Source: a virus. From it: a stretch of 21,308 nt of DNA. A program made the translations under genes and the position numbers. Below are positions 224 through 14,939 of this stretch, one piece after another; positions within the stretch are counted from its first letter, which is position 1; every line of letters starts with the position of its first letter. The stretch lies in IMG/VR virus record IMGVR_UViG_3300035682_000219, positions 1 to 21,308 of that record; one strand, written 5' to 3'. Under the pieces are notes generated by a model. The model saw only the letters and a list, made by a program, of their open reading frames with translations. It was not told the origin of the DNA and did not search any database.

Positions 224-1330
224 TTAATACGCAGCTACTGCCATGTATGTTTCTAAAATTTTGATGTCAACCATAACTTCACCATCTACATAGTTTTTCT
301 TATCCTTACGGTCATAGAAACTGTCTAAACTTCCAAGCATTTCAGTTGAAGGTGTTCCTACTGGAATATTGTCAGCAGTAGTTAATAAAGCACGGTGCGG
401 CTTATCCCACTTAGTACCATTATCGAACCAAGCACGAATGCTGTTGTCCCAGTATGGCATGCTGAAAATATCAATGCCGCGATATGTTCCAATATAGTTG
501 CCCTGTCCATAAGCGGAAGTTAAATCTGCCAAATCTTTCTTGATGTTGACTGCATTCTTCCATGCTGTTTCTTCATAGCTATCCATTAAGTTTTCAGCTA
601 AGCTTTCAGTCAGCAATAATATTTTGCTTGCTGATGTTTTAAGACGGCTGTCTGCTTTCTTAATCATTGCTTTGATTAATCCTTTGGTATAGTCTGCTGC
701 AAGTGTGTCCTGGAGCGCATAAGATGCAGTAGCATTGGCCGGAATAGCAACATAGTTTGCACCGCCTGAAATAGCAGGACCGTACTTTGTGAATACTTGT
801 TTCCAAAGTCCGTCTAAGCATGTAAAGTATTTCAGCTTTATTCCTGCTGTATCAACTAATACACCACCGCCTGCAACTTTCAACATTGCTGTGTCGCCGA
901 AGTGTAAAATTCTCCACAACATTTCTTCTGTTGCGTCTTCAGCTTTCATTTGAATGATAGTTTCTTCCGGGCTATTTGTCATGTCATACTGATCTACAGC
1001 ATTGCTGATTTTTTTCTTCAGGTAGAATGCAAGGCTGTTTAAGTCTTTGCTGCAATGTTCTAATCTGAAGCCCAATGTTTTTGGTGCCCATGTTTGCTCA
1101 CTCATAGGAATTGAAGCACTATCTGGAATAGCACATCCTTCAATACACTCACCAACAATTGCAATATTGCCTACAAATGGAATTTTCTTTCCATGTTGAA
1201 TGCCAGTGATTACAGCGTGGAATGCTGCAATACTTCCTTTCTCAATTTTCTTCTCAAAGATTACTTGAGAAATATCATTTGCCTGCTCAGCGACAAGTGA
1301 TAATGCGTCAATGTTAATAGCTGTTGCCAT
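224..1330 (-). CDS. Major capsid protein (HK97-fold, probable)
   Basis: This 368-residue protein is the expected length for an HK97-type shell protein and lies directly after a protease/scaffold fusion gene, the classical order of head genes. It has no signal peptide or membrane segment. The middle is Gly/Ala rich (LKVAGGGVLVDTAGIK near 150-165, GPAISGGANYVAIPANATASY near 184-204) and the C-terminal part holds mixed beta segments with GIDIFSMPYWD and RALLTTADNIPVG, similar to capsid C-terminal domains that resemble lysine/virion sheet motifs. I assign it from position, size and character and not from a diagnostic motif. It begins with ATG after a 44-base A/T-rich spacer, and a strong hairpin lies 12 bases past its stop. 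An alternative role as another abundant head protein cannot be excluded. Confidence 0.72.
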   Translation of the reverse strand: MATAINIDALSLVAEQANDISQVIFEKKIEKGSIAAFHAVITGIQHGKKIPFVGNIAIVGECIEGCAIPDSASIPMSEQTWAPKTLGFRLEHCSKDLNSLAFYLKKKISNAVDQYDMTNSPEETIIQMKAEDATEEMLWRILHFGDTAMLKVAGGGVLVDTAGIKLKYFTCLDGLWKQVFTKYGPAISGGANYVAIPANATASYALQDTLAADYTKGLIKAMIKKADSRLKTSASKILLLTESLAENLMDSYEETAWKNAVNIKKDLADLTSAYGQGNYIGTYRGIDIFSMPYWDNSIRAWFDNGTKWDKPHRALLTTADNIPVGTPSTEMLGSLDSFYDRKDKKNYVDGEVMVDIKILETYMAVAAY

Positions 1331-1374
1331 GATTTTTACTAATTTTAGGTTATAATTATTTTAAAATATTTGAA

Positions 1375-1896
1375 TTATTTTTCTTCTAAAAATTCCTGCA
1401 ATGTTCTGCCAGTTGCTTTTTTAGTTTTATTGTCTTTATGTTCCTGACTTTTTGTTGCAGGCACATAATCGCTTTTAACCATTGTTGCAAACTTCACAAA
1501 TTCGTCTTCCAGTTCTTTCATTCTTTCGTCTGCTGCTTTCTGATAGTCTGTGAATGATTTTTTCAATTCTGCATTTTCAGCTTTCAATTCATTCATTGCT
1601 TTTACTGCTTCAACATCCGGCACAACAACAGGTTCAACCACAGGATCTGTGGAAGCTGCAACTGCTGGTTCAATGCTTTCAATTTTACCGCCAGTGATTA
1701 CCCACTTGCTACCATCCGGGAAAGTATAGTCGCCGTCCGGTGCAGCAGTTCCTGCAACCTGTACTTCGTCGCCTGCTTGTGGTTCTGTGTTGTCCGTCAC
1801 AACTGTCAGGATTGTACCTGTTGCGTCTGTGACGTCAATATTTTTTTCGACTGTAATTCCTAAAGCCGCTTTCATTCTTTCTTTAAAACTTTTCAT
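1375..1896 (-). CDS. Probable internal start giving free scaffold protein
   Basis: An in-frame ATG at 1896 (residue 231 of the fusion) starts exactly where the scaffold-like part begins, giving 173 residues with the coiled coil and C-terminus. The bases before it read TTTAAAT, an A/T-rich leader like those of the other ATG starts here, while the full-length frame begins at a weaker TTG. Nested protease/scaffold genes with an internal start are known from phage lambda (C/Nu3). The internal start is an inference and could instead be only the domain boundary. Confidence 0.5.
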   Translation of the reverse strand: MKSFKERMKAALGITVEKNIDVTDATGTILTVVTDNTEPQAGDEVQVAGTAAPDGDYTFPDGSKWVITGGKIESIEPAVAASTDPVVEPVVVPDVEAVKAMNELKAENAELKKSFTDYQKAADERMKELEDEFVKFATMVKSDYVPATKSQEHKDNKTKKATGRTLQEFLEEK

Positions 1897-2586
1897 ATTT
1901 AAACTGTTTGATGTTTTAGATAAATGTGTTTCGTACTTTTTGAAGAATATGCTGAATGCATTTTCATTCTTCTCGATTGCTTCAAGCACTCCAGGGTTGT
2001 CGTCAAGAAATTCCGTAAGCTTGATGCCTATGTCGTCAGTACTTTTAAAAAGTCCGTCAGTAGCTGCCGGGCTGTCAACAATATCAGATGCAGAAAATGA
2101 AGTCAATGTAAACTTCCTTACTTCTGTTTTGTCTTCCATTGTGAATGGTTCTTCAGTTGCCCGGAACACTATACTGTTGCCAAGTTTGTCAGGATTGCTT
2201 TTTGCCATTTCTACAATGTAGTCATGGTAGGAAATTCCTTTGCCGTCAATTTGTGTCTTCTTAGAAATTTCAGCCAGATACAAGTCTGCAATAGCTTTAA
2301 ATTTTCCCTCATGTTCTACAGCGCGGAAGTTGTGAAAGTCGCCCAGATACGTTCCTAAGCTGTCCTTGCACATGTTAGGATGTCCGGCACGTGACTTGAT
2401 GCCAGTCGGTGCGCTGTTTCCATGCTCAACAATGCTTTTTATAAAGCTATCATCCATTAAGTCGCCGACCTTATCTACACCGCTTTGAACAATGACAATA
2501 TCTTTAACGACTGTAAGCCCTGCAATAGTAGCAATGGCTTTAGTTTTGTTATCAAATACTGGCTGATTTTTAAATCTGTCTGACAA
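1375..2586 (-). CDS. Prohead protease fused to capsid scaffold
   Basis: The N-terminal ~190 residues resemble assemblin-type phage head proteases (P2 gpO / Mu I type): GHPN with candidate catalytic His69, LGNSIVF with candidate Ser138, and FSASDIVDSPAATDGLF near 164-180, which is a signature-like segment with candidate Asp168/171. Residues 191-230 are a linker. From residue 231 (MKSFKERMKAALG) the protein looks like a scaffold: an acidic, Pro/Val-rich middle, a DGDYTFPDGSKWVITGGKI segment near 285-303, a charged coiled coil near 330-370, and a polar tail. The start is TTG at 2586, because a stop lies three codons upstream and the first in-frame ATG is at residue 44, inside the conserved domain. 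It would cleave scaffold and capsid N-termini during head maturation. Catalytic residues are inferred from motif position only. Confidence 0.8.
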   Translation of the reverse strand: MSDRFKNQPVFDNKTKAIATIAGLTVVKDIVIVQSGVDKVGDLMDDSFIKSIVEHGNSAPTGIKSRAGHPNMCKDSLGTYLGDFHNFRAVEHEGKFKAIADLYLAEISKKTQIDGKGISYHDYIVEMAKSNPDKLGNSIVFRATEEPFTMEDKTEVRKFTLTSFSASDIVDSPAATDGLFKSTDDIGIKLTEFLDDNPGVLEAIEKNENAFSIFFKKYETHLSKTSNSLNMKSFKERMKAALGITVEKNIDVTDATGTILTVVTDNTEPQAGDEVQVAGTAAPDGDYTFPDGSKWVITGGKIESIEPAVAASTDPVVEPVVVPDVEAVKAMNELKAENAELKKSFTDYQKAADERMKELEDEFVKFATMVKSDYVPATKSQEHKDNKTKKATGRTLQEFLEEK

Positions 2587-2598
2587 TGTTTTTTATTT

Positions 2599-2618
2599 AT
2601 GTTACTTCAAAAGTAATT
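2599..2618. repeat. 20-bp palindromic element, copy 1 (head operon)
   Basis: ATGTTACTTCAAAAGTAATT is identical to bases 14892-14911. Its core TTACTTCAAAAGTAA (2602-2616) is an inverted repeat of TTACTT around CAA. Each copy lies just upstream of a minus-strand gene and contains that gene's predicted -7 promoter element, so the palindrome may also be an operator or activator site. Confidence 0.85.
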
Positions 2619-2630
2619 TACTTATCTTTG
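2602..2630 (+). promoter_or_regulatory. Plus-strand promoter of the nuclease island
   Basis: TATCTTTG at 2623-2630 matches TAnnTTTG and would start transcription near 2637, about 17 bases before the ATG at 2654. The -33 region is poor: the nearest candidate is TTA at 2602-2604 with an 18-base spacer, lying inside the palindrome. The -7 region TTATCTTTGAAGTAC (2622-2636) matches the minus-strand element TTACTTTTGAAGTAA at 12 of 15 bases. It overlaps the spacer of the divergent head promoter, so the two probably compete. Confidence 0.55.
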
Positions 2631-2638
2631 AAGTACAA
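2608..2638 (-). promoter_or_regulatory. Minus-strand promoter of the head operon
   Basis: On the minus strand a TTG (2638-2636) is followed by exactly 20 bases and then TACTTTTG (2615-2608), matching the Bacteroidota primary sigma pattern TTG-N19/20-TAnnTTTG. Transcription would start near 2601, leaving about 15 bases before the TTG start of the protease gene. The -7 element sits inside the 20-bp palindrome shared with 14892-14911. Confidence 0.7.
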
Positions 2639-2653
2639 CTTTTAGACAAACTT

Positions 2654-2908
2654 ATGTCAAAACTCAGAAATATTTATACTGGCTGGAAGAACTACTTGAC
2701 AGATAATGAACTGGCAAACGAATTAGCACAGGAACGTGCGCCGTTTTGCTCAGAATGTACGCATGCAGTATTCAAACAACACCTGCTTGCTATGACTGAT
2801 GAAGTAAAAATCATTGAGGGCTTTGTCTGTGAATTATGTCATTGTCCGCTGTCAGCAAAATTGCGAGTGCCGGAAGAAAAGTGTCCGGACGTTCCGGCTA
2901 AATGGTAA
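2654..2908 (+). CDS. Small cysteine-rich, probably zinc-binding protein
   Basis: This 84-residue protein has two cysteine knuckles, CSEC at 32-35 and CELCHC at 59-64, and a further Cys77 in the ending EEKCPDVPAKW. The spacing fits a zinc ribbon. The N-terminus (LRNIYTGWKNYL) is basic and aromatic. I recall similar short proteins, with a C-terminal CPLSxKxRxPxEKCP segment, in Bacteroides phages, where the function is unknown. It is the first gene of a three-gene plus-strand unit, three bases before the HNH gene, so it may bind nucleic acid or assist those nucleases. A transcriptional role is equally possible. Confidence 0.72.
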   Translation: MSKLRNIYTGWKNYLTDNELANELAQERAPFCSECTHAVFKQHLLAMTDEVKIIEGFVCELCHCPLSAKLRVPEEKCPDVPAKW

Positions 2909-2911
2909 CAA

Positions 2912-3172
2912 ATGAAAGCTTATACAAAAATATATCTTGCCAATTTTCAGTACTGCTATACTGAATTTATCCCTTGTGAAATATGCGGACAGCAGGCAGT
3001 CGACATTCATCACATCCAAGCACGCAGTAAGCGCAAAGATTTGGTTAACGACATAGCAAACTTAATGGCCTTATGTCGCAATCATCATTTAGAATATGGA
3101 GACAAGAAGCAGCACATGGATTATTTACAACAAGTACACAACCAAAAACTGGATGAAGCACGAAGAATTTAA
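2912..3172 (+). CDS. HNH endonuclease
   Basis: A compact 86-residue HNH nuclease. Cys22 and Cys25 (PCEICG) with Cys55 and His58 (LCRNHH) form the structural zinc site, His33/His34 (DIHHI) supply the catalytic histidine, and Asn50 with His58/His59 complete the HNH motif. All core elements are present, so it is probably active. HNH proteins of this size beside packaging genes in HK97-type phages are known to work with terminase during DNA packaging. Here the gene lies on the opposite strand, between tail and head genes, next to a second nuclease. Its 3' end overlaps the following gene by 20 bases, suggesting translational coupling. Confidence 0.85.
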   Translation: MKAYTKIYLANFQYCYTEFIPCEICGQQAVDIHHIQARSKRKDLVNDIANLMALCRNHHLEYGDKKQHMDYLQQVHNQKLDEARRI

Positions 3173-3548
3173 TTTGCAGAAAAGTCTGGCTGCATATTTA
3201 GAAAAACAATATCCGGCTGTTTTGTTTCTGAGTGATACAATAGCAAATGTCAAGCTGAATGTCAAGCAGGCTTCACGTAATAAAAGCATTCAGAAGAATG
3301 AATTCAAATGTCCAGACTTACTGATCCTGGAACCACGCGGAAAATATCATGGATTGTTTATGGAATTGAAAATTAAAACACCTTACAGGAAAGACGGACA
3401 GCTTAAAAGTTGCAAGCACTTATCCGGTCAGGCAAAGTCTATGACACAGCTTAATTCAAAAGGTTATTTCTGCAATTTTGTCTGGACGTATGAACAGGCA
3501 AAAACCTTAATAGATAAATATTTAGCTTTGCAGCATGTAGGCAATTGA
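3153..3548 (+). CDS. VRR-NUC domain nuclease
   Basis: The protein has 131 residues when started at the ATG at 3153. A longer frame from 3096 would overlap the HNH gene by 77 bases and add 19 residues of out-of-domain sequence. Pro54-Asp55 (CPDLLILEP) and Glu71-Leu-Lys73 (LFMELKI) form the PD-(D/E)xK core, and SGQAKSMTQLNSKGY near 91-105 is the usual VRR-NUC C-terminal helix and turn. The family includes Holliday-junction or structure-specific nucleases of phages and restriction-like enzymes. In this island it may resolve branched DNA before packaging. Its last 27 bases overlap the end of the convergent helix-turn-helix gene. Confidence 0.85.
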   Translation: MKHEEFNLQKSLAAYLEKQYPAVLFLSDTIANVKLNVKQASRNKSIQKNEFKCPDLLILEPRGKYHGLFMELKIKTPYRKDGQLKSCKHLSGQAKSMTQLNSKGYFCNFVWTYEQAKTLIDKYLALQHVGN

Positions 3549-3776
3549 ACGTGTTGCAGTTCTCACGCTGCACTTGTACTTTAATGCTGTTGCTTTCAGT
3601 GCTGTTGTTCTGTTGCGTCTGTCATTACAGTAGATTGTACAATAGTATTCATACATTTGGAATTTACTCACAACGTCAATACCAATTACACCCTTTTCTA
3701 TAAGCGCATTGCTCAGCTTTTTGTTTGCAAATAGTTCCTGAAGTTCGTTGTATAGCATGTTATATGTTTGCACCAT
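3522..3776 (-). CDS. Small helix-turn-helix protein ending the tail operon
   Basis: This 84-residue basic protein has a C-terminal half (NRTTALKATALKYKCSVRTATRSIAYM, about 55-81) that reads as a helix-turn-helix with recognition helix VRTATRSIAYM, similar to sigma-like or Mor-like DNA-binding segments. The N-terminal 40 residues are helical with no recognised domain. It starts with ATG at 3776, overlapping the tape measure end by 17 bases, so it is translated with the tail operon. It could be a late regulator acting on the shared palindromic promoters, which is inference. Its 3' end overlaps the convergent VRR-NUC gene by 27 bases. Confidence 0.65.
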   Translation of the reverse strand: MVQTYNMLYNELQELFANKKLSNALIEKGVIGIDVVSKFQMYEYYCTIYCNDRRNRTTALKATALKYKCSVRTATRSIAYMLQS

Positions 3777-6324
3777 CCACTAAAGATAATCGATTATTAA
3801 CTCCGGTTATAATATCCTTAACATCAACAACTGGCTGATAGCTTTTTATGCCGTCAGTAACTCCCTTTGCAATCTGCAAGCTAATGTCAGGTATTTCAAG
3901 ACTTCTTGAAACAAGTCCGCCGTCAGCATAAATTCCATTTGATACCGGGCTACTGAAATTTGCACCGCCATAGTATTCATTAAGTGAAGAAAGTGCACCA
4001 ATAGCACGTGAAGCTTTTCTATTCAGTACATACCAGTTTTCACCCTGTTCCAATTCTACAACATGGCCATCTTCACCATAGTATTTTGTTCCGCCGGAGC
4101 TGTGCAGATTACCACCAGTAGTTCCTGCAAGTCCGCCTGCTGCAAACTTAGTTGGTACTTTTGCAATGTTTGCGACGTTTGCAATACCGGTGCCAATAGT
4201 TGTTGCAATGGCCAAAGCTTTTGTAATTGTGTTCAGCGGTTCCGGACCTGAAGGCGGTGCTGCCAGTACTTGTGAAACACCTAAATAAGTATTGATAGTT
4301 GCTTGTGCAATACCTGCTGCTTTTCCGGCAATGGTATTCTTCCCAAGTAATTCAGCAACCTGTCCAAGCCCATCTGAAAGCATGCCAAGTTGGGTGCGCT
4401 GTGTTTCTTTTTGAATAAGAGTTTTTGCCAGTTCATACTTTTCATAAATCTTATTTTTTTGTGCGCCGTTTGTGTCTGCTGCTTTTAATTCATTAGCCAT
4501 CTGGCGGTCAAGCTGTTCTTGTCTCAATGTATATTCACCTTCACCTTGCAGTCTGCGAATTTCCATTTCATTTTCCCAGTCAGTAATTAAGCGCTGTTTG
4601 TCAAATTCTTTTTTTGCTGTGGCTAAGTCGTTTGCTTCATTGGCAATTCTTATTTTTTCTTCCTGTACTTTTTTATAGTTTTCAAGTTCTGAATTGAAAA
4701 ACTTTTCTGCTTCTTCTGCAATTTTTTTATTTCTTGCGTCTGTTGCTTCATTGAATTCATCTGTGAGCTTTGTAAGATCAGTGAGATACTTAGTTTGAGA
4801 AATAAGTTTCTGTGCCAGTTGTTCATCCAGCAACTTCAATTCAAGATTGTACCGTTCAAGAATTGCACTTTCACTTTTACTGGTTCCGCTCAATGCATCC
4901 TGCAGGTCAATTTCTTCCTGCATTGCTTTTATAATTGCGTCCTGTTTTTTCTTTGCCAGTTCTTCACGTTTCTTTTCAGCGGCTTCTGCATCAGCGCGTG
5001 CTTTCTCAGCTTTAGCAATTCTTTTTTCTTCCAGGGCGTCTGATTGATTTTGTATTTTTTCCTGTCTGGTTGTGCTTTCATCCAGTATTGCAATCTTTGA
5101 TAGTGTTGCTTTTTTTAATGCGTCAACTTCTTCCTTTCCAATTAGTCCACGATTTTCTAATTGTATTGCATACTCAACACCGACTTCACGCAACTTTTGA
5201 ATTTCTTCATCACTCAGTTTGCCTTTTATTTTTGCGCTGCTTTCAGCAATAGCAATTTCTTTATTTGAAAGTTCTGTCCGGCGCTTGAAGTCTGCTTCAT
5301 CCAGTGCAGCAGCTTTTGCCAATAGTGCTTGTCTTTCAACTTCACTGGTTGATCTGTTCTTACTTTGCAGAATTAATTCCCGGACCTGCTGACTGGTTCG
5401 CGCTGTAAGCACTTCCTGGGCTTGCATACCGTCTTCTAATTCCTGTTGTTTCTCTTTCAGTTCCGCCGCAGCAATTGCTGCTTCAAGCATGCTGTCTGTA
5501 AGTTCTTTATATGCGGCTGTTGGATTGGATATAATTGCACCAAGCTTGCTTAATAAGTCACCCATTGACTTAATATTCTCAATAAATCTTACTGCTGTTG
5601 TTGTTACAATATCCATTGCTGCACCAAAGCCTGCTGTAAGCTGTGCAATCTTATCCATAACCGGATCAAGTTTTGAAAAACCATTGATTAATGCACCCAA
5701 TAAAAGAACAATTATTCCAATTCCTGTTGCGATTAATGCCCTACCAAAGCCAGTTGCACCTGCTGAGCTAATATCGAAGCCCTGCTTGACCGTAGTTAAG
5801 GCTTCTTTAGCTGAGCTAAGCTTTTGTATTACTCCGCCAAAAGTGCCAGTAAACAAGCCCATTCCCTTTGCAGCTTCAACTATGCTTCCAGTATAGTTTC
5901 CCACGTTCCGGCGGTTGTCGCCTGTTGCTGCTTCAAGCGTTCTTAATTTGTCAGACAGTTCTAATTTGTGAGCTGAAAGCTTTTGCCCTTCCTTTGTGTT
6001 CTTCTGTTCTTCTTCAGTAAGCTGTGACCATTGCACAGATACAACACTTAAAGCTTTTCGGAGCTGTTCAATAGTTGCATTCTGCCCGGTTGCTGCCTGA
6101 GTATAATCAGACATTAGCTTGATGTTTATGCGGACTTCATTTGCCTGTGCTTTCATTGCTGCTTCCAGGGCAACAGCTTCTTCACTGTTTCCCTTATTTT
6201 CTAAACGCAATTTCTTTAATGCTTCCTGCATTTCAGTCAATGCTTTTTTTGCATTAGAAGTAGACGTTACTAATTTTGTATAGTCTAAATCGAGGTCTAA
6301 GATTTTGTAGGTTTCGCCTGCCAT
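3760..6324 (-). CDS. Tail tape measure protein
   Basis: At 854 residues this is the longest protein of the window. It is mostly helical, with a hydrophobic segment at about 195-216 (LIATGIGIIVLLLGALI), long charged coiled coils from about 280 to 640 (KRIAKAEKARADAEAAEKK and similar), and a second Ala/Gly/Ile-rich hydrophobic region near 690-740 (AGIAQATINTYLGVSQVLAA). The C-terminus is Gly-rich with KFAAGGLAGTTGGNLHSSGG, a common end of tape measure proteins of Bacteroidetes phages. It sets tail length and would be injected or line the tail tube. At about 0.15 nm per residue the tail would be near 130 nm. Neighbours are two large tail proteins upstream and an HTH gene downstream. Confidence 0.87.
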   Translation of the reverse strand: MAGETYKILDLDLDYTKLVTSTSNAKKALTEMQEALKKLRLENKGNSEEAVALEAAMKAQANEVRINIKLMSDYTQAATGQNATIEQLRKALSVVSVQWSQLTEEEQKNTKEGQKLSAHKLELSDKLRTLEAATGDNRRNVGNYTGSIVEAAKGMGLFTGTFGGVIQKLSSAKEALTTVKQGFDISSAGATGFGRALIATGIGIIVLLLGALINGFSKLDPVMDKIAQLTAGFGAAMDIVTTTAVRFIENIKSMGDLLSKLGAIISNPTAAYKELTDSMLEAAIAAAELKEKQQELEDGMQAQEVLTARTSQQVRELILQSKNRSTSEVERQALLAKAAALDEADFKRRTELSNKEIAIAESSAKIKGKLSDEEIQKLREVGVEYAIQLENRGLIGKEEVDALKKATLSKIAILDESTTRQEKIQNQSDALEEKRIAKAEKARADAEAAEKKREELAKKKQDAIIKAMQEEIDLQDALSGTSKSESAILERYNLELKLLDEQLAQKLISQTKYLTDLTKLTDEFNEATDARNKKIAEEAEKFFNSELENYKKVQEEKIRIANEANDLATAKKEFDKQRLITDWENEMEIRRLQGEGEYTLRQEQLDRQMANELKAADTNGAQKNKIYEKYELAKTLIQKETQRTQLGMLSDGLGQVAELLGKNTIAGKAAGIAQATINTYLGVSQVLAAPPSGPEPLNTITKALAIATTIGTGIANVANIAKVPTKFAAGGLAGTTGGNLHSSGGTKYYGEDGHVVELEQGENWYVLNRKASRAIGALSSLNEYYGGANFSSPVSNGIYADGGLVSRSLEIPDISLQIAKGVTDGIKSYQPVVDVKDIITGVNNRLSLVDGANI

Positions 6325-6325
6325 G

Positions 6326-8284
6326 TTAATTGATTTTTATTATTTCACAGTCCGACAATTTGCCGGGCAAAAAGTTATTGATTTTATTTAGATAAAAATA
6401 AGATTGATATTGCTCGAGATAAATAATTTTGAACATGTCCAAAAAATAAATGTCAATCGGTGTGAACCAAATTGATACCGACTTTTTAACTGGATTACTT
6501 ACAGTTGCAATGTACTTCAGATAATTTTCTGCTTTTAGTACTTCCCAATGCAAAGGTGCAAACTGAGCAACAGCAAGCACTGAAGAAAAGAAAGGATAGT
6601 TACCAAGCACTGTGTCTGTCAGCGAGTCATACATTTGTATTTGAGTAGTCGGAGCTGTGGCAAGTACAACAGTCTGCAAAGTATTGTTGTCATTCAGAAC
6701 AAATGTAGGTGGATTGTCTTTGTTGTCTTCTGTGTTTTTGTATGCATGTATTGAAGCTATTTTCTGCCAGTTATCAAACAGCAACCAGTCACCGGAAGCT
6801 TGAATTATGCTGTCCATTTCTGTGCTTTCTTCCTGCAGGTCGTCAATGTCAATTAAGAATGAGCTGTCAGCATATCCGGCTGGCTGCTTATCATCATCAG
6901 TATAAGCATAAGCCATTAAATTCTTTTTTGAAAATGAACCTATTCTGTAGCTTTCTGACTTCTCGCTGTTGAAGACTGCTGTGTAGTTACTTATTCCGGC
7001 AGATCCTGTCAGCAAGTCTTCAATTTTAATGAATGAAATATTGCCTGTGCTGTCTCGCTGATAGATAAGTCCAAACTGCTGCATGATTGCTTTTAAAAAA
7101 TCAATCTGTTTTATCTTTGGCAGCCACTTTTCAAATTCAATTACAGAACCAAATGCAATTGCTTCCCTGCTTGTCTGCCGTATTTCCAAAGAATAATCTG
7201 CAATGTCCAATTGCACTGTGTTAATCGGTCCGCCTGAGTAAAAGCTTGTAAAGAATTCTACTGTGTCGCCCTGTCTTAATAATATTTCACTGACTAAAAC
7301 TGTGTTTCTAATGTATACGCCAAAAGATAATTCAATATTAATTTCTACATCAGAAATAACATCTGAAAATACACCATTTATTTTGAGTTTGAAATTCTGC
7401 TTGTGCAGATAACTTACAGCCAGCGTGCTTTTCAAAGTGAATGCAAATACACCATCTTCCGGTGCTGTGTAAATGTCAGTTGTTAAATTGTAATTTGCTG
7501 AAGCTGTAATATTAGTATTGATATTTATGGCATGTGTTACGGTACCCGGTCCGCCAGAACTTATTGTGACATTTGGTGTCAGTGGATTATTGCCGAAATA
7601 ATAATCAAACGGCGTTGTAATTTCTTTCACCCAATTTCTGCAAGCTGGTACTACTGTGTTTTTGTATTTTGTATTGGTTGAAAAAAAGCTTCCTGAATAT
7701 ACAAGCCCGGCTTCTGCAAATATTCTATCCCAAATTGTCTTGACAAAAACATGCGGAAATTGATAATTTAAATCTACTCTTAAAACATCAGTAGCTGCTT
7801 TAGTAATTCTTCCATCAAGTGTTTCAACTATTGGGTAAATGTATTCAATAGCTCCGGCAAGTGTATTGTTATTTTCCCAAGCAAACTTGTCAAACAAATG
7901 GTCAAGGTCACTCCAGTCAATATCTGTTATGTACTTGTTGCTTATCCGGCTGTACAAATCATAGTTGCCTGCATAAATTAGAAACTCAAATGCGTCTGTT
8001 GTCTCAGTAACAAATGCAACACCATCCTGCAGTATAGGAATACTATTGCTGACTATCTGTGCTGTGCTCCATTTATACGGAAGTGTTGAAGTGTTTCCCG
8101 GTGTATTCAGATGCTTAACAATGATTTTATTGGCAGGTGTTTTCAAAGCTTTAAATCTGTTTGTGAAGTCAGCTTGACGCTTTTGAATATCTGCAATGTC
8201 GTTAATCTGTTTTGTTATTGCAACAACTGCTGAAGCTGTCAGTTCTAACTTACTACCATTGATGTAAACTTCTACTGTGTTCAT
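6326..8284 (-). CDS. Large tail protein, probably tail tip or baseplate
   Basis: The protein has 652 residues with no signal peptide or membrane segment. The N-terminus (VYINGSKLELT, then ITKQINDIADIQKRQADFTNRF near 24-45) resembles a protein I recall next to the tape measure in Flavobacterium and Bacteroides phages. The middle is rich in beta-type sequence with many Asn/Thr (FDYYFGNNPLTPNVTISSGGPG near 225-246), typical of virion structural proteins. It overlaps the upstream gene by the ATGA at 8284-8281 and ends one base before the tape measure start. Position beside the tape measure suggests the distal tail or hub. No enzymatic motif was seen. Confidence 0.6.
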   Translation of the reverse strand: MNTVEVYINGSKLELTASAVVAITKQINDIADIQKRQADFTNRFKALKTPANKIIVKHLNTPGNTSTLPYKWSTAQIVSNSIPILQDGVAFVTETTDAFEFLIYAGNYDLYSRISNKYITDIDWSDLDHLFDKFAWENNNTLAGAIEYIYPIVETLDGRITKAATDVLRVDLNYQFPHVFVKTIWDRIFAEAGLVYSGSFFSTNTKYKNTVVPACRNWVKEITTPFDYYFGNNPLTPNVTISSGGPGTVTHAININTNITASANYNLTTDIYTAPEDGVFAFTLKSTLAVSYLHKQNFKLKINGVFSDVISDVEINIELSFGVYIRNTVLVSEILLRQGDTVEFFTSFYSGGPINTVQLDIADYSLEIRQTSREAIAFGSVIEFEKWLPKIKQIDFLKAIMQQFGLIYQRDSTGNISFIKIEDLLTGSAGISNYTAVFNSEKSESYRIGSFSKKNLMAYAYTDDDKQPAGYADSSFLIDIDDLQEESTEMDSIIQASGDWLLFDNWQKIASIHAYKNTEDNKDNPPTFVLNDNNTLQTVVLATAPTTQIQMYDSLTDTVLGNYPFFSSVLAVAQFAPLHWEVLKAENYLKYIATVSNPVKKSVSIWFTPIDIYFLDMFKIIYLEQYQSYFYLNKINNFLPGKLSDCEIIKIN

Positions 8285-9528
8285 AATGTTTGTGTAAATA
8301 TTTTAGGTAATATGAATTCAAATGAAACAGCATAAATATTTGCAGAACTTTTCTTTGGGTACTGGAAGCCGACTATCTGCGGAAGCTTCAGCCAAACATC
8401 TATGTTTCCATTTGCATAAGCCAGTGTGTCCTTAGGCTTCATGTACAAATAAACAGCAGGTGAAGTTGCAATGTCTGAAACATATTTAAGATAGTCGCTG
8501 TCCAGGTTCTGTGTTGTTACTTGTATTTTTTCTGTTGCTTCAGTTCCGATATTATTTTCATCACTGGCAAAGCTAAGCTCACCATCATTTGTGCTGATAG
8601 TTCCTTTTGACTTTGCATTGAATGTTGTCTTAGTGTCTTTATTAAAAAGCCAATAAGAATATCCACCACAGCTATTCAGCCATTTGATATACACGCCGCA
8701 ATCATCAACAAGCTCATACAGGAAATTGTATATTGAATTCGGTGCGGTGCCATCATCAAACATTGAAGCTATTTGCAGCTTTCCTTTTGTCTGCGGAAAA
8801 GTATTGAATATTGGCACAATGTTCTGGCCGTCACTCAAAATAATACGCTGCACATATTTGTTTGTTCTACTTCCGGCTGTAATTGTTTTATTTTCAAATC
8901 CTATATAAGTGCCTGACGGAGTGAACAGCGTAAACTGTAAATTGTTATTGACTGTTTTTGCAATTACTGATAAGTCTTGCGGATAGCCTTTGAATATTCT
9001 AAGCTTTTGCGTGAAGCCTGTTTTATTTATTCCGGTTGGCATCAATGCGCGGCATGTTTCCAATCCACCCACAGGGCTGCCAAAAATGAAGTCACTTTCA
9101 AAGTAGTACATTGATGAAGCAAACTGGTCATGGTGCTGCCTGACGGCTTTTAAATAATACCCAGTCACGTCTATTTCATCTGTTGTCGTGTCTGTATAAA
9201 TCAGCTTAAGCTTTATGGTTGTAACATTGCAAAGATTAGCATCAAAAATAACTACATCGCTGAGTATATAAGCAACAGTATCATTGAAGTTTCCGAATAA
9301 AGACTTGATAACTTCTTCAACATTGAACTGCGGACCTGCGGAACCGGGCACAAGCTTAGTGAATTTGAGTGTTCCATTGAACCAAATTTCACCTGTGGCA
9401 ATTGTTTTGATTGTGTCTGTGTTCCACTTGAACAGGTTGTTGTTGTATGCTGCTGCAAAGTAAGAAGTCCAGTAAGCAGCGTTAAAATAAACTGATCTTA
9501 CAGACTGCTTTTGAATTGTAACTCCCAT
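8281..9528 (-). CDS. Tail structural protein
   Basis: The 415-residue, Asn/Thr/aromatic-rich, beta-type sequence has no membrane segment. A motif DDCGVYIKWLNSCGGYSYWLF near 283-303 is distinctive and contains a Cys pair. It is encoded between the small connector genes and the two largest tail genes, with an ATGA stop/start overlap to the downstream gene, so it is almost certainly made in step with it. Its position in the tail operon supports a distal-tail or baseplate component. I cannot place it in a named family. Confidence 0.57.
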   Translation of the reverse strand: MGVTIQKQSVRSVYFNAAYWTSYFAAAYNNNLFKWNTDTIKTIATGEIWFNGTLKFTKLVPGSAGPQFNVEEVIKSLFGNFNDTVAYILSDVVIFDANLCNVTTIKLKLIYTDTTTDEIDVTGYYLKAVRQHHDQFASSMYYFESDFIFGSPVGGLETCRALMPTGINKTGFTQKLRIFKGYPQDLSVIAKTVNNNLQFTLFTPSGTYIGFENKTITAGSRTNKYVQRIILSDGQNIVPIFNTFPQTKGKLQIASMFDDGTAPNSIYNFLYELVDDCGVYIKWLNSCGGYSYWLFNKDTKTTFNAKSKGTISTNDGELSFASDENNIGTEATEKIQVTTQNLDSDYLKYVSDIATSPAVYLYMKPKDTLAYANGNIDVWLKLPQIVGFQYPKKSSANIYAVSFEFILPKIFTQTL

Positions 9529-9531
9529 GAT

Positions 9532-9825
9532 TTATTTATTTATTTCTGTTTCTAATTTATCCGGCAATGCTGTTGCACCATTTTCAACCATGAAGTCCTT
9601 AATAGCTGCAAGCTGTGCAGGTGATAACGACTTCAGCTTGTTGTTTCTTTTTTCTTTTGGTGTGTCTTCACGGAAGAACTTAAAAAGTATTCTGTCCGGC
9701 TGTGTAGAATAATTAATATCAACTGCTGTTGCATCTGATTGCGCTGCTTCTGTCAAGAGTGCTTTCAAATCTTTAATGCTGATTGATCTGTTGACTGGCA
9801 TTTCTGCTGTGTAAGTTTTTTCCAT
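9532..9825 (-). CDS. Small tail-module protein of unknown function
   Basis: The 97-residue acidic/basic mixed protein has no recognised domain. The C-terminal half (SPAQLAAIKDFMVENGA) is predicted helical and the N-terminal half mixed. It lies three bases before the 415-residue tail gene and one base after the preceding gene, so it belongs to the same operon. A tail assembly chaperone is possible from its place upstream of the tape measure, but no frameshift extension was found. Confidence 0.5.
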   Translation of the reverse strand: MEKTYTAEMPVNRSISIKDLKALLTEAAQSDATAVDINYSTQPDRILFKFFREDTPKEKRNNKLKSLSPAQLAAIKDFMVENGATALPDKLETEINK

Positions 9826-9826
9826 G

Positions 9827-10285
9827 TTATGCTGTTTTTAATATTTCGAATACTTGTGAAGTGAATTGTATTACATTGATAAATTTAAGTCTGTTGACAA
9901 GTTCATCAATACGTGCTTCAGTAATTACATTGCTTATGACACCGCCCTTATTAAACTTGTTCGGCACTTTAATTCCCTCGCGGAATATTTTACGCTGAAT
10001 AAGAAAAGCCAGTGAACTTTTTGGAATGTTTGAAACAATTTTCTTTTTATCAATCCAGTCTTCAATAGCTTTGCGTGGCGGCCACGTTCCGGCAAGCCTG
10101 CCGTTCTCCATCTGAAAAGAATATCTTGCACCAAACATGATTGCACGCTTGTCTGTGTTGAATGGCGTAAGACTGTCTGCAAAACCTCCGGAGCTTTTTA
10201 GTCCCAGCCTGTTGTATTCTGCTATGAGGTCAGCTTTCAGTCTTACCATCCATTCATTAATTATTTCTGTCTGTGTTACCGGCAT
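9827..10285 (-). CDS. Head-tail joining / tail completion protein (HK97 gp10-like, tentative)
   Basis: The protein has 152 residues. The core NGRLAGTWPPRKAIEDWIDKK (about 61-81) followed by SSLAFLIQRKIFREGIKVPN (about 90-109) matches the pattern of gp10-like or gpS-like virion morphogenesis proteins, in which a PP-x-IxxW segment precedes a helix with AxxIxRKI-xxxG. Such proteins complete the tail and join it to the head. It starts at ATG 10285, sharing a base with the stop of the upstream membrane protein gene (TAATG). The assignment is by motif recollection without a search. Confidence 0.6.
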   Translation of the reverse strand: MPVTQTEIINEWMVRLKADLIAEYNRLGLKSSGGFADSLTPFNTDKRAIMFGARYSFQMENGRLAGTWPPRKAIEDWIDKKKIVSNIPKSSLAFLIQRKIFREGIKVPNKFNKGGVISNVITEARIDELVNRLKFINVIQFTSQVFEILKTA

Positions 10286-10584
10286 TAAATTAATTCTTGT
10301 TTTATTATTGTAATGTTTCCATCGTCATTGCTCAGCTTGTATGTTTCACCTTTTACAAGGTTATCGTCAAACTCAGTTTTTGGTGCAGCGATTTTTATTT
10401 TTGTACTGCCGGAAATAAAAAGCAAGCAGTCATTTTTTCGCATCATGAACACAGCGCTTATTTCTTTTTTTACCAGTTCAATCTGTTCTGACTGCTGAAT
10501 AATTTGGGTGCCAAGTGTGTGATAGTATGCAATTACTATTGGAATTAAGCACAGTATAATTGCTATTAAAAGTCCTGTTGTCAT
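10285..10584 (-). CDS. Small membrane-anchored protein in the tail module
   Basis: The first 20 residues (TGLLIAIILCLIPIVIAYY at 3-21) form one clear transmembrane helix preceded by only two residues. A short helix (QIIQQSEQIELVKKEI) and a soluble, possibly beta, domain of about 60 residues follow. No lipobox or cell-wall motif is seen. The gene shares its stop/start bases with both neighbours (ATGA upstream, TAATG downstream), so it is translationally coupled within the tail operon. It could be an accessory virion protein, an infection-stage membrane protein or a spanin-like component, but nothing in the sequence decides. Confidence 0.55.
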   Translation of the reverse strand: MTTGLLIAIILCLIPIVIAYYHTLGTQIIQQSEQIELVKKEISAVFMMRKNDCLLFISGSTKIKIAAPKTEFDDNLVKGETYKLSNDDGNITIIKQELI

Positions 10585-11045
10585 ATCAAATCTTGTTTAA
10601 TGGTGAATGTCAAATAAAGTCCGTCAAGCGGAAAGTCAAATTGTGGAATGTTCATGACTTCTTTCATGCTGACATTTGACAGCGTTAAAGTATCATCACA
10701 GGTGAAAGCCTGCATCAGCCTGTCAACTGTCTTCTGATCATACAGCGGCTTGATAGTAGTTGTCCACTTTTCAAGATAGTAGTCTTCACCATTTTCGCCC
10801 GGTGTTCCGCCGTCAATGTCTCCCTTTGTGCAGATGAACATTGCAACATCCCAAGTATATGACACAGGCTTGTTGTATTCATTCAGGAATGGCTTGCAGT
10901 CTACAGGAAGAAGCCACAGGCAGTATTTGCTGTCTGCTGTCTCAGTTCCTTTGCCGTCATACAAGTTCAGCGCCGGAGCTGTGCCATAGCGGAAATACAT
11001 GTCAAGCATCTGTGTTGCTATCGTTTCAATTGTTTGAACTATCAT
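10581..11045 (-). CDS. Unknown protein, possible tail terminator/completion factor
   Basis: The protein has 154 residues with no membrane segment. It contains YCLWLLPVDCKPFLNEYNKPVSYTWDVAMFICTKG (41-75), an alternating hydrophobic stretch suggestive of beta strands, as in the mixed fold of tail-terminator proteins. That is inference from position between terminase and tail genes and from size. It overlaps the upstream and downstream genes by ATGA junctions at 11045 and 10584. No family was recognised. Confidence 0.5.
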   Translation of the reverse strand: MIVQTIETIATQMLDMYFRYGTAPALNLYDGKGTETADSKYCLWLLPVDCKPFLNEYNKPVSYTWDVAMFICTKGDIDGGTPGENGEDYYLEKWTTTIKPLYDQKTVDRLMQAFTCDDTLTLSNVSMKEVMNIPQFDFPLDGLYLTFTIKQDLI

Positions 11046-11602
11046 TCTTTTTTGCTTTTGATTTTTTGTAAACTTTTTTGTATTTCAGCTTTAGTCTTAT
11101 CCAGTTGCAGCTTTGTAAATATCCGCTTGTAAGGAAGTTCAATGATCTGTGTGTGCTGAAGAATATTTCCACCACTTAAAGTGTCAACTGTTGCAATCCT
11201 GCCGAATTTAATCATCTTGTCAATTCCTGCTTCCAGTTCGTCGCTGTCCGCTTCATAGCCCAGGATTAAATTTTCACGCTCAATCAATAAGCTGTATTTG
11301 CTGTGGACATAATTGAAAGCTTTATAGAATTCTATTATTCCTACCTGTTCAATCTGGTATGTATCTAAGCTGAAGCACACAGCAACAATGTCAATTTTAT
11401 TTTCGGGCCGGGCAGATAACTTCTTAAATAAGTTTTCAATAGTGATTATGTTTTTGAATGGTTGCTGCTCAAGTGTTGGCATTGTTTTATTCAGCAGACT
11501 GTCAGAAGCTGTCAAGTTCTTCAGCAGGTGCATGTACATAGGATAGTCAACTGGCAAGTGCTCAGTCAAAAATCTTTTTATGTCATAATTATAAACGTCC
11601 AT
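11042..11602 (-). CDS. Conserved phage protein of unknown function after terminase
   Basis: The protein has 186 residues, with a helical N-terminus (IKRFLTEHLPVDYPMYMHLLKNL), a middle YNYVHSK-like aromatic segment near 105-120, and a basic C-terminal coiled coil (LDKTKAEIQKSLQKIKSKKE). The segment IDKMIKFGRIATVDTLSGGNILQHTQIIELPYKRIFTKL is one I recall in Bacteroides prophages in the tail region, without assigned function. It begins 14 bases inside the large terminase end. In many phages this slot holds the portal, but this protein is far too short for a portal. Confidence 0.5.
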   Translation of the reverse strand: MDVYNYDIKRFLTEHLPVDYPMYMHLLKNLTASDSLLNKTMPTLEQQPFKNIITIENLFKKLSARPENKIDIVAVCFSLDTYQIEQVGIIEFYKAFNYVHSKYSLLIERENLILGYEADSDELEAGIDKMIKFGRIATVDTLSGGNILQHTQIIELPYKRIFTKLQLDKTKAEIQKSLQKIKSKKE

Positions 11603-12764
11603 TGTATCTTGTCTTATTTGTATTCACTTTGCTTGCCATGTACGAAACACCGTATCTGATTGCATCCATGCTGTGGTTGTTATCGTCAACAGGTTCGTCA
11701 ATAAACTTGCCTGCTTTCTTATCGTACACGCGGACATAGTTTTTTATTTCATTTCTTGTATTGCTACTGTTTACTGTCAAATGTATTTTGTACTTCTGTA
11801 CTGCTTCAATCCCGGATATAACAGAACCTTTTCCCTTTTCAACAGCTACTGCGTTATATCCCATCTGGACAAGTTCCTTAATACTTTCGGGCCGGGCATT
11901 GTCACAGACAAGCTTTACACTTTTGTCTATGCTGATAGTCCTGTCCATTTCAGCAACTGTCTTAAAGCTTTCATAGAATATTTCTTCAACAAACAACTGA
12001 TCATTCCAGGCACGCAAATGGTTCAACGACATTGGATCTGTGAAGCCAAAGTCAAGCGCATACACCTGCTTGTCGAATATGAACGGCATATCCTGTATTA
12101 ATTCATAGTTAGGATAGATTAGTCCGTCAAGCTTTCCAGTGCGTCCAAGACCATAGATTGAATACTTACGTGGATTTTTGAACTGCCAGCTCATTATGTC
12201 TGCAAGTATTTCAGCAGGCACAAATGGATTGTGTGTGTAATTTGAATAATAAGTCACGCAGCGTTCATCTGTTTTAATATGGTCATGGTACCAGTATTCT
12301 GTGTCAGGGTTCCAGTCAAAAAATATCTGCTTTCTGGTCCGGCTGATTAGTTGTTCGGCAATTGTGTAGTTGATACCGTTTGACTCATTAATGAATAAGT
12401 AGTCACGCTTTCCATTCTTCGCATCCTGCCAGTCGCTAAAACTTGCAAACTCAATTATGCTTCCATTGGGTAGCTTGTAAATTCTGTCTTGACTTTTGAA
12501 GTCATTGAACCACCACCGAAAGTCTTCATGCATGCTTTCCAAGATTGTTGTCTGAAAGTCACGCAGTGAACCTTTTTTTAAGTTAGGAATATCCTGTCCC
12601 ACGACTGTGATAATACACTTTTCACTTATAGCAATATGACAAAGAACTTGTAAAACACTTATTGTCTTACTGGAAGATGTGCCGCCTTGATTACCGACAA
12701 AGCGCTTTTTTGCTTGTATATTCCAGTAGAAAACATCTGTATAAGTATTGAATAATTGTACCAC
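11589..12764 (-). CDS. terL: Terminase large subunit
   Basis: The ATPase/nuclease motor that packages DNA into proheads. It has 391 residues. Walker A is GGTSSSKT (27-34, Lys33). Walker B is DYLFINE (121-127) with the catalytic Glu127. Asp218 in ALDFGF, Asp268 in VCDNARPES and Asp357 in NNHSMDAIRYG are the three nuclease acids, so both activities look intact. It resembles PBSX/Terminase_3-type large subunits. The start is GTG at 12764: an ATG two bases upstream is out of frame, and a stop follows upstream. It lies five bases after the small terminase stop. Confidence 0.92.
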   Translation of the reverse strand: MVQLFNTYTDVFYWNIQAKKRFVGNQGGTSSSKTISVLQVLCHIAISEKCIITVVGQDIPNLKKGSLRDFQTTILESMHEDFRWWFNDFKSQDRIYKLPNGSIIEFASFSDWQDAKNGKRDYLFINESNGINYTIAEQLISRTRKQIFFDWNPDTEYWYHDHIKTDERCVTYYSNYTHNPFVPAEILADIMSWQFKNPRKYSIYGLGRTGKLDGLIYPNYELIQDMPFIFDKQVYALDFGFTDPMSLNHLRAWNDQLFVEEIFYESFKTVAEMDRTISIDKSVKLVCDNARPESIKELVQMGYNAVAVEKGKGSVISGIEAVQKYKIHLTVNSSNTRNEIKNYVRVYDKKAGKFIDEPVDDNNHSMDAIRYGVSYMASKVNTNKTRYNGRL

Positions 12765-12768
12765 ATTT

Positions 12769-13266
12769 TTATCCTTTTATAGCTTCTTCACTTGTCACAG
12801 GTTCGTGCAATGCATGTCCATTGACAATTATAGTTGCGCTTTGAGTAGGGAAGTCTTTCCCGTTGGTTGTTACATCCACTTTTTTAGCCGGGTAATGATT
12901 TTCAAGCTTGCTCAGAAAGTCACAAGCTTTCAGTCTGTCGCTGTCAGTTGGAATAAGAATTTCAGTTCCGACCTGCCGACCGCCGCCTCTGGCAATAGTA
13001 CTGGCAATAGTCAAAAGTTCCTCGCGGCTCAATACGGCTTGTTTGGCACGCCCTTTTTCAAGGTCAGTCGTTTGGTCAGCAATCTCTTTTCGTCTCGCCA
13101 CGAGTGTCCTGAGGTGTGCTGTGTTGGCTTCTTTCCAGTGTCGGTCAAACGTTCTTACACTAATTTGCCATTTTTTGACAATTTTTGCCAAACAGGGTGC
13201 CCGTTCTGTGCCTGTTTCCAAGTCCAGAAGTATTTCACTGATTATATTTTGCTTGTTAGGCTTCAT
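12769..13266 (-). CDS. terS: Terminase small subunit
   Basis: The protein has 165 residues and lies immediately upstream of the large terminase. The N-terminus holds a helix-turn-helix (CLAKIVKKWQISVRTFDRHWKEA, 25-47) of the type that recognises packaging DNA. The centre (TTDLEKGRAKQAVLSREELLTIASTIA, 65-91) resembles the oligomerisation helices of small terminases of Bacteroidetes phages. The C-terminus is flexible. It starts with ATG, overlapping the methyltransferase end by 11 bases. It binds the pac or cos site and hands DNA to the large subunit. Confidence 0.82.
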   Translation of the reverse strand: MKPNKQNIISEILLDLETGTERAPCLAKIVKKWQISVRTFDRHWKEANTAHLRTLVARRKEIADQTTDLEKGRAKQAVLSREELLTIASTIARGGGRQVGTEILIPTDSDRLKACDFLSKLENHYPAKKVDVTTNGKDFPTQSATIIVNGHALHEPVTSEEAIKG

Positions 13267-14308
13267 TCGGGAACCATTGCAATTTTATCTGGTTGGCAAT
13301 TTGTGCTGTCATAACTGGCGGAACTGACATTCCAATTAAGTACTTAGGATTAATGTCAAGGAAGTTGTAGTCCATTGGATAACTTCCGCCAAGCTTCCAT
13401 TCATTGTCGTTTGTATATACCGGCATGTCAGCCCTGGAATAATGGTTCGAAGTTCCGGCTGTACTGGTCAGCGTAGGCATGCAGTCATTCATGTTTAATT
13501 TAAAACTACTGAAGCGTGAACCTGTAGGATGTGCATCTGAAAGTGATCTGCCCTCTTTTACTTTCTTCCACAGATCAAAGTAAACTTTTGTCATGCTTCT
13601 GTGCGGTTCGTCTTTTGTTACTGCTGCAATATGTTTGAAGTAGATAGGCTTTTCATTGAATTCCAGTTTGAGCTTAGGGAAGTTTAATTCTTTCAGATGT
13701 CCAATAAAGAACACGCGTTCTCTTTTCTGTGGCACTCCCATTGTTGCAGCATTCAGGCAGAAGACTTGCACAGTATATCCTGCTTCAGTCATTTTCTTTA
13801 CTATGTTTTTGGAATAGGTTTTTGCATTGCCCTGGATGATACCTTTTACATTTTCCAGTAAGAATGTTTTAGGCTTCAGCTTTATGATTGTATCACAGTA
13901 GACAAATACTAAGTCGTCAAGTGTTTGCTTTTCCTGTCCCTCACTGAATTTCTTTTGTACGCCCCAATACTTTTCTCTTGCTCCGGCCATTGAAAATGTA
14001 CTGCAGGGCGGACTTCCGTCAAGCAAGTCCAGGTTGAAAAGTTCTTCCGGCAGGTCTTCCATTTTATTGAATTCCCGGATGTCGGCGTTGTACAAGAATT
14101 TAGGATTGTGATTTGTAGCGTATATCTTTGCCACTTGCGGATCTATTTCCACGCCGCCCAGATGTGTGAAGCCTGCAAGCTTATATCCCATTGTTGAACC
14201 ACCACCGCAGACAAATGTTCCAAAGACTTTTAAATTGTTCTTAGGTATTCCATTGGCCGGGTAGCCGTCAGACAAATTCCAGTTGTAAGGAAATAAGTGA
14301 CTACTCAT
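13256..14308 (-). CDS. DNA cytosine-C5 methyltransferase
   Basis: The protein has 350 residues with the usual order of motifs: I (VFGTFVCGGGSTMGYKLAGF, 28-47) for AdoMet, IV (DGSPPCSTFS, catalytic Cys102), VI (ENV, 152-154) and VIII (QKRERVFFIG, 194-203). The target-recognition region carries PTLTSTAGTSNHY at 278-290, and the C-terminal GMSVPPVMTAQIANQIKLQ corresponds to motifs IX-X. All catalytic residues are present, so it should be active. No restriction partner is visible, so it is an orphan enzyme, likely used to protect phage DNA or mark it for packaging. It is encoded directly upstream of the terminase genes. The target sequence cannot be read from the protein. Confidence 0.9.
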   Translation of the reverse strand: MSSHLFPYNWNLSDGYPANGIPKNNLKVFGTFVCGGGSTMGYKLAGFTHLGGVEIDPQVAKIYATNHNPKFLYNADIREFNKMEDLPEELFNLDLLDGSPPCSTFSMAGAREKYWGVQKKFSEGQEKQTLDDLVFVYCDTIIKLKPKTFLLENVKGIIQGNAKTYSKNIVKKMTEAGYTVQVFCLNAATMGVPQKRERVFFIGHLKELNFPKLKLEFNEKPIYFKHIAAVTKDEPHRSMTKVYFDLWKKVKEGRSLSDAHPTGSRFSSFKLNMNDCMPTLTSTAGTSNHYSRADMPVYTNDNEWKLGGSYPMDYNFLDINPKYLIGMSVPPVMTAQIANQIKLQWFPNEA

Positions 14309-14873
14309 TGAATAAGAATTTAATAAGTGCTTCTTCTGCTGTCAGGTTCAATTCTGCCAGTCTTTCTTTTATCCGGTCATACTGATCTTCTGTATAATCC
14401 AGTTTTAAAAACATGCGGCCTGAGAAGTCGCCTGTGTCAATTTCTTTATTTTTGCCTGAGTAGGATTTTGACTCGATAACATCGACACCCAATTCCTGAG
14501 GGTCTATGTTGAATTGTTCTACAAGTTCATTGATTATCTGTGTGTCAAAGTCAATGTTCTTTTTTGCTGTGGTATTGGCCAGAATACTTGCGTCATAGAA
14601 TTCCTTTGTGTCGCTTTGTATGTCGGTCCGCTTGATAATTACAGGCCGGGTGCCGTCTGTCTCAATTACAATAGGTTCTGTCTTGAAGCTTTTTGTCATG
14701 ACTTCACTTCGCGCATTGCCGGAAATAATTTTGTTGTCAGCGCTTACAGTTATGCTTTCGATAACTCCGACCTTATTGACGGAGTGCTGCAAAAGTTCCA
14801 TCCCTTCCAGGGTGTGCCTGTTATGGTTTTTATCGTCTGGAATTAAATGACTAAGCTTAAATTTTTTGGACAT
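14301..14873 (-). CDS. ParB/Srx-fold protein (ParB N-terminal-like)
   Basis: The 190-residue protein begins with the ParB/Srx fold: IPDDKNHNRHTLEGMELLQHS (11-31), GVIESITVSADNKIISGNARSEVM (36-59). The SGNAR element (51-55) replaces the GERRYRA of chromosome-partition ParB. There is no HTH or dimer domain of classical ParB. The rest is helical, ending LNLTAEEALIKFLFNE. It is the first gene of the packaging/tail operon, overlaps the methyltransferase start by 8 bases, and sits about 21 bases from the predicted transcription start. Such proteins often accompany phage DNA methyltransferases and may process or bind DNA. Confidence 0.78.
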   Translation of the reverse strand: MSKKFKLSHLIPDDKNHNRHTLEGMELLQHSVNKVGVIESITVSADNKIISGNARSEVMTKSFKTEPIVIETDGTRPVIIKRTDIQSDTKEFYDASILANTTAKKNIDFDTQIINELVEQFNIDPQELGVDVIESKSYSGKNKEIDTGDFSGRMFLKLDYTEDQYDRIKERLAELNLTAEEALIKFLFNE

Positions 14874-14891
14874 ATTACTTGAATTGTTTAA

Positions 14892-14911
14892 ATGTTACTT
14901 CAAAAGTAATT
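14892..14911. repeat. 20-bp palindromic element, copy 2 (packaging operon)
   Basis: This is identical to bases 2599-2618, with core palindrome TTACTTCAAAAGTAA at 14895-14909. It lies in a 66-base gap upstream of the ParB/Srx-like gene. The flanks of the two copies differ outside the element except for an AAGTA nearby (14921-14925 and 2631-2635). Confidence 0.85.
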
Positions 14912-14931
14912 CAAATAAACAAGTATTCCAA
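14901..14931 (-). promoter_or_regulatory. Minus-strand promoter of the packaging/tail operon
   Basis: On the minus strand a TTG (14931-14929, within ATTTGGA) is followed by exactly 20 bases and TACTTTTG (14908-14901), the same spacing and -7 sequence as the head promoter at 2608-2638. Transcription would begin near 14894, giving a leader of about 21 bases before the ATG at 14873. No separate terminator of the upstream block was found in this gap, so the two minus-strand blocks may partly read through. Confidence 0.72.
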
Positions 14932-14939
14932 ATCAATTT

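Follow-up and report, generated by a model that had tools for sequence, protein, structure and literature searches.

The 21,308-base virus record analysed here over its whole length, hereafter the window, is from a Bacteroidota phage, and its minus-strand genes form two operons, one running from 14873 down to 3522 and the other leftward from 2586. It also encodes a ParB with an HTH (19210-21009) and a ParB-like N-terminal protein (14301-14873). Only 224 bases in total are intergenic between the outermost genes, and the two largest gaps, 2587-2653 and 14874-14939, each hold one copy of the same 20-bp sequence, ATGTTACTTCAAAAGTAATT. The features that bear on the argument are as follows.

224..2586, minus strand: start of the head operon, with a prohead-protease-like gene (1375-2586) and a major-capsid-like gene (224-1330); the operon continues past the contig end
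2599..2618, minus strand: 20-bp repeat, copy 1, with its dyad core at 2602-2616 and the -7 box TACTTTTG at 2615-2608 on the minus strand
2608..2638, minus strand: predicted sigma-ABfr promoter of the head operon, TTG-N20-TACTTTTG (consensus from PMC7366714)
2623..2635, plus strand: divergent -7-like element TATCTTTGAAGTA, with TTTGAAGTA in common with the two main sites; it forms an inverted repeat with 9-bp arms with copy 1 (2603-2635)
2654..3548, plus strand: divergent cassette coding for an 84-aa Cys-rich protein, an HNH endonuclease and a VRR/Holliday-resolvase-like nuclease
3522..3776, minus strand: small HTH protein of 84 aa, a divergent Mor-like family member coded by the last gene of the packaging/tail operon and a candidate dyad reader
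3522..14873, minus strand: packaging/tail operon, with ParB-like, C5-methyltransferase, TerS-like, TerL, neck/tail and tape measure genes and the small HTH gene
14892..14911, minus strand: 20-bp repeat, copy 2, with its dyad core at 14895-14909 and the -7 box TACTTTTG at 14908-14901 on the minus strand
14901..14931, minus strand: predicted sigma-ABfr promoter of the packaging/tail operon, TTG-N20-TACTTTTG

The gap at 2587-2653 is divergent, as the plus-strand cassette begins there behind TATCTTTGAAGTA, and with this element, at 2623-2635, TAYYTTTGAAGTA is present three times. The cassette, with its three genes, breaks the run of minus-strand late genes, the HTH gene lying on one side and the protease gene on the other. 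Its Cys-rich protein has homologues after the tape measure in two other contigs (L209 and L277), and the HNH and VRR-like nuclease genes overlap by 77 nt in different frames (3096-3172, plus strand).

The preliminary description of this DNA had placed an identical 20-bp palindrome at 2599-2618 and 14892-14911. Both positions were recovered, and no third copy was found in the window even with up to 3 mismatches, but the dyad symmetry is confined to a 15-bp core, TTACTT-caa-AAGTAA, so that the 20 bp are an exact repeat and not a palindrome over their whole length. ATGTTACTTCAAAAGTAATT is the sole exact 20-bp repeat in the window and also its sole exact repeat of 17 bases or more. The number of direct 20-mer pairs expected from base composition is 0.0008 (~0.001), and none of 100 dinucleotide shuffles held two copies of ATGTTACTTCAAAAGTAATT. 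Two extensions of this observation were rejected: the 15-mer is no general viral marker, being present in at least 120 contigs with one copy each, mostly within genes, and the idea that TACTT half-sites extend into longer helical-phase arrays around the two sites of the window was dropped, since the spacings differ.

The consensus of the primary sigma factor of Bacteroidota, sigma-ABfr, has been described as TTTG at -33 and TAnnTTTG at -7 (PMC7366714), and both window sites fit it, with TAnnTTTG at -7, a TTG near -33 and a suitable spacing of 20 bp. TTG-N20-TACTTTTG is exact on the minus strand at 2638-2608 and 14931-14901, with the head operon downstream of the first and the packaging/tail operon downstream of the second, just as had been noted at the outset (TTG, exactly 20 bases, then a -7 element within the palindrome in both copies). 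These two are the sole matches to TTG-N20-TAnnTTTG in the window, and relaxing the spacing to N17-23 gives five more, all inside or overlapping coding regions. The sigma-ABfr consensus includes no perfect overlapping dyad common to two operons, whereas the window has one. Across all viral contigs, TTG-N20-TACTTTTGAAGTAA gave 12 matches, about the chance level, none of them a two-site relative.

The relatives found for this phage are distant, with TerL at no more than 43%, capsid at no more than 35% and helicase at 45% (best protein ~45%), and single-sequence searches with TerL and the protease found no close relative. Conservation of the genes together with loss of the palindrome in related phages had been named beforehand as evidence against a shared operator. 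This is the case for the sequence itself, as none of the relatives found shares ATGTTACTTCAAAAGTAATT, but it is not the case for the layout, since relatives have their own dyad at both operon heads. BS-TP3 (PQ571276) has the late gene order of the window, with ParB-like, methyltransferase, TerS, TerL, tail genes, tape measure, a Mor-domain protein, protease and capsid, and extra genes between Mor and protease. Its dyad before the protease, TGACA-N5-TGTCA, has a single further copy in the 57.5 kb, ahead of the ParB-like gene, and both copies are 43 nt upstream of a -7-like box. The window likewise has its dyad at both operon heads and nowhere else, at an equal dyad-to--7 distance, but it differs from BS-TP3 in the sequence of the dyad and in its position, since the BS-TP3 dyad lies upstream of promoters without a -33, whereas both window sites have a TTG at spacing 20 and a dyad that overlaps the -7.

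To describe this layout across phages, the 130 nt before the protease gene were compared with both strands of all the available genome sequence, and the location of the best other match was recorded. The best match lay before the packaging operon, at rank 1 and with 0 of 317-914 other windows equally good, in the window, BS-TP3, L351 (a Phocaeicola faecium prophage), G017, L366, G007, G019, G012, G001, G023 and L357, while in L376 the match upstream of the packaging operon was at rank 2; homologous genes were used to set the operon heads manually in G012, L357 and L376, and likewise the protease start in G023. The paired layout recurs in BS-TP3, in one Phocaeicola prophage and in at least 8 further contigs, which amount to about 6 independent dyad types including that of the window, as BS-TP3, L351, G017 and L366 share one type and are not fully independent.

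The dyads of the relatives differ in sequence (TGACA/TGTCA, GTCGCA/TGCGAC, TTGCCA/TGGCA, TGTGTA/TACACA and GCTTAT/ATAAGC), and in the sequence available each phage's own dyad is present in exactly two copies in BS-TP3, L351, G017, G007, G019, G012, G001, G023 and L376, with additional weaker matches in G007 and G019 under a looser GTCGCA-type pattern. Where both boxes are clear, the distances from dyad to -7 in the two operons are closely matched, at 43/43, 42/43, 42/42 (three phages), 44/43 and 8/9, and they are -14/-14 in the window. G001 has a clear -7 box in one operon only, L357 has a longer promoter stretch common to both operons, no clean dyad and no Mor-like gene, and in L352 (B. clarus) a dyad like that of G017 precedes the packaging operon, the one of the two heads that was mapped there. 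A different dyad at the same two heads, in two copies and at a matched distance from the -7, is as expected from a regulator coevolving with its site. These comparisons support the view that one phage-specific dyad marks both late operons and that the sequence and position of the site have undergone unusual turnover.

Eight relatives have no shared dyad, namely G014, G016, G002, L378, PM116P4, BV283P3 and BC669P3 in the layout test, and L209. A Mor-like gene is nevertheless present in four of the non-sharers in the tested set and in L209. Among the eight, the isolated Bacteroides phages PM116P4, BV283P3 and BC669P3 lack both a Mor-like gene and a shared dyad, although a -7-type sequence precedes the protease gene in each.

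Some of these genomes have further features of their own. G007 (L309) has a third GTCGCA-type dyad near position 41893 of its contig; it is weaker, lies upstream of a different gene and may be one more target of the same regulator. In a clade formed by L229, L235, L236 and L224, a dyad TAACA-N6-TGTTA lies upstream of the protease, ~22 nt before the -7 as judged by eye and near the position used by Mu Mor. The Parabacteroides phage PM116P4 (L129; positions 1892, 4294 and 9134) and BC669P3 (L128; positions 6782, 9249 and 36609), both without a Mor-like gene, have their own repeated promoters at several genes, such as TTGGCGG..CCGCCGTATATTTG and TTGTAGT..CCGTATCTTTG. PP511318.1 (Dulem virus 31, L126) is filed under Microviridae, a placement that looks wrong for a tailed phage of 35.8 kb that has sheath and terminase genes.

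The protein coded at 3522-3776 belongs to a family of HTH proteins of ~75-90 aa with 55 related loci, always on the same strand, in which the gene lies between the tape measure and the protease/head operon in the 45 relatives with a mappable position. No match for it was found by phmmer and Pfam alone, and the family emerged only through iterative HMM searches on relatives; its placement in this phrog_17790-like family is given by its location and by an E value of 1.5e-15, the window sequence having been a seed of the model. Each searched contig has at most one such gene, which closes the packaging/tail operon in nearly all of these phages; of the dyad-sharing phages tested, L357 alone lacks it. 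Family members match the Pfam Mor and PHROG late-activator models weakly: the window protein has no hit to Mor (PF08765), and L244, identical to BS-TP3 gp61, reaches 18.6 bits against a gathering cut-off of 24.9. PPR hits of one profile (A6) were dismissed as short repeated stretches only. AlphaFold models of the window protein and L244 are helical and confident, with mean pLDDT of 86.8 and 94.1, respectively; Mu Mor (1rr7) is the top PDB match to the window model, at a non-significant E of 2.5, and the L244 model has no significant match. Dyad similarity tracks recognition-helix similarity in 10 phages (Mantel r 0.45, p 0.0045, uncorrected for shared ancestry), and G012 and L376, both with GTGTA-type dyads, also both have a tryptophan in the recognition helix. 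We regard the 3522-3776 protein as the best candidate reader of the dyads.

In our reading, the 20-bp repeats serve as the two operators of a single circuit that controls the late genes. A dimeric DNA-binding protein coded by the phage, likely the small HTH protein at 3522-3776, would read the 15-bp dyad at both heads and so couple the packaging/tail operon to the head operon in expression. We consider this probable. Since the gene of the candidate regulator closes the packaging/tail operon, its product would control the very operon that encodes it in addition to the head operon, which would build feedback into the circuit. The preliminary proposal of a phage-specific promoter/operator through which one regulator switches both units gains support from the finding of own dyads at both heads, mostly two per genome and at a matched -7 spacing, and of a candidate regulator gene. 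Joint control of both late operons is well supported by these comparisons, while binding, the identity of the regulator and the sign of control are what we infer from them.

In the bacteriophage Mu promoter Pm, a Mor dimer sits on two 5-bp inverted repeats in a 16-bp element centred at -43.5, which replaces the -35 (PMC4390567). The dyads of the relatives lie 8-44 nt upstream of the -7 box, and a -33 TTG is present in only 1 of 18 of their dyad-bearing promoters (window, L357 and G001 excluded). With Mu Pm as a guide, an upstream dyad together with a missing -33 suggests activation in the relatives. The window differs: each of its two promoters carries a -33 TTG and has the dyad over the -7 box, an arrangement that suggests instead a repressor-like operator at which initiation is blocked. 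As the dyad there lies over the -7 box and the start region of an otherwise complete host-type promoter, the simplest effect of binding would be to keep RNA polymerase out for as long as the regulator stays in place. It is possible, although we hold this only tentatively, that a Bacteroidota phage circuit of one small HTH regulator, two dyads and two operons keeps its layout while the sequence and position of the dyad drift, and that in the lineage of the window the site moved from an activating position onto the -7 of a promoter with a -33, turning an activator-dependent pair into a repressible one.

The repeat could also be no more than a strong host-type promoter used twice, a -7 box with a favoured start region, TTTGAAGTAA, whose symmetry is a by-product and which needs no regulator. 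The ideal TTG-N20-TAnnTTTG in both main copies fits this, as does the less symmetric divergent third copy, TATCTTTGAAGTA, which retains the -7 plus AAGTA. However, a 20-bp identity far exceeds what a promoter needs, and in the relatives the shared unit is a dyad set apart from the -7 box (~42 nt), with the remaining promoter differing between the operons, so that we regard this explanation as quite improbable. A recent duplication that moved the promoter to a second place, without shared regulation, would account for the perfect 20-bp identity, but that identity ends abruptly at 20 bp around the dyad, and one such event would not account for the recurrence of this pairing, with other sequences, across many lineages; this explanation is already disfavoured and very improbable.

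Alternatively, the reader of the dyads may be some other protein of the phage or of its host. A ParB-like protein that works as a KorB-type repressor is one example, and a lysogeny repressor coded beyond the contig is another. The contig is incomplete, the window encodes both the ParB with an HTH and the ParB-like N-terminal protein, and a dyad over the -7 box is often seen with repressor operators. Dyad sharing across phages, however, tracks the small HTH gene and not a full ParB, the recognition helix of the small HTH protein covaries with the dyad, and the ParB-like gene at the operon head is absent or undetected in some dyad-sharers, such as G017, G012 and G001. A reader other than the small HTH protein seems unlikely to us.

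Little has been described of how Bacteroidota phages control their late genes, and no report of a shared late operator or of a Mor-type regulator in these phages was found in the open-licence literature. What we describe looks like a switch for late genes with a conserved layout and a DNA sequence that differs between phages. A two-site layout with a changing sequence offers a simple rule to find late promoters and their regulator in a large group of phages from the gut and the environment, most of it unannotated, and it provides a natural series for the study of regulator-site coevolution and of whether activation can become repression.

Among the known systems closest to the proposed circuit is Mor/C of phage Mu, a small phage HTH regulator whose dimer site of two ~5-bp inverted repeats has the geometry of the dyads seen here. 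The promoters of the relatives keep a -10/-7 box and lack a -35/-33, as in Mu. The differences are that the promoters here are of the host sigma-ABfr type, that the regulator is only ~80 aa and scores weakly against Pfam Mor, and that the position of the dyad varies, from ~42 nt upstream of the -7 box to an overlap with the box, the window being the case in which a promoter with a good -33 has its dyad over the -7. In Mu, one regulator, C, serves several late operons.
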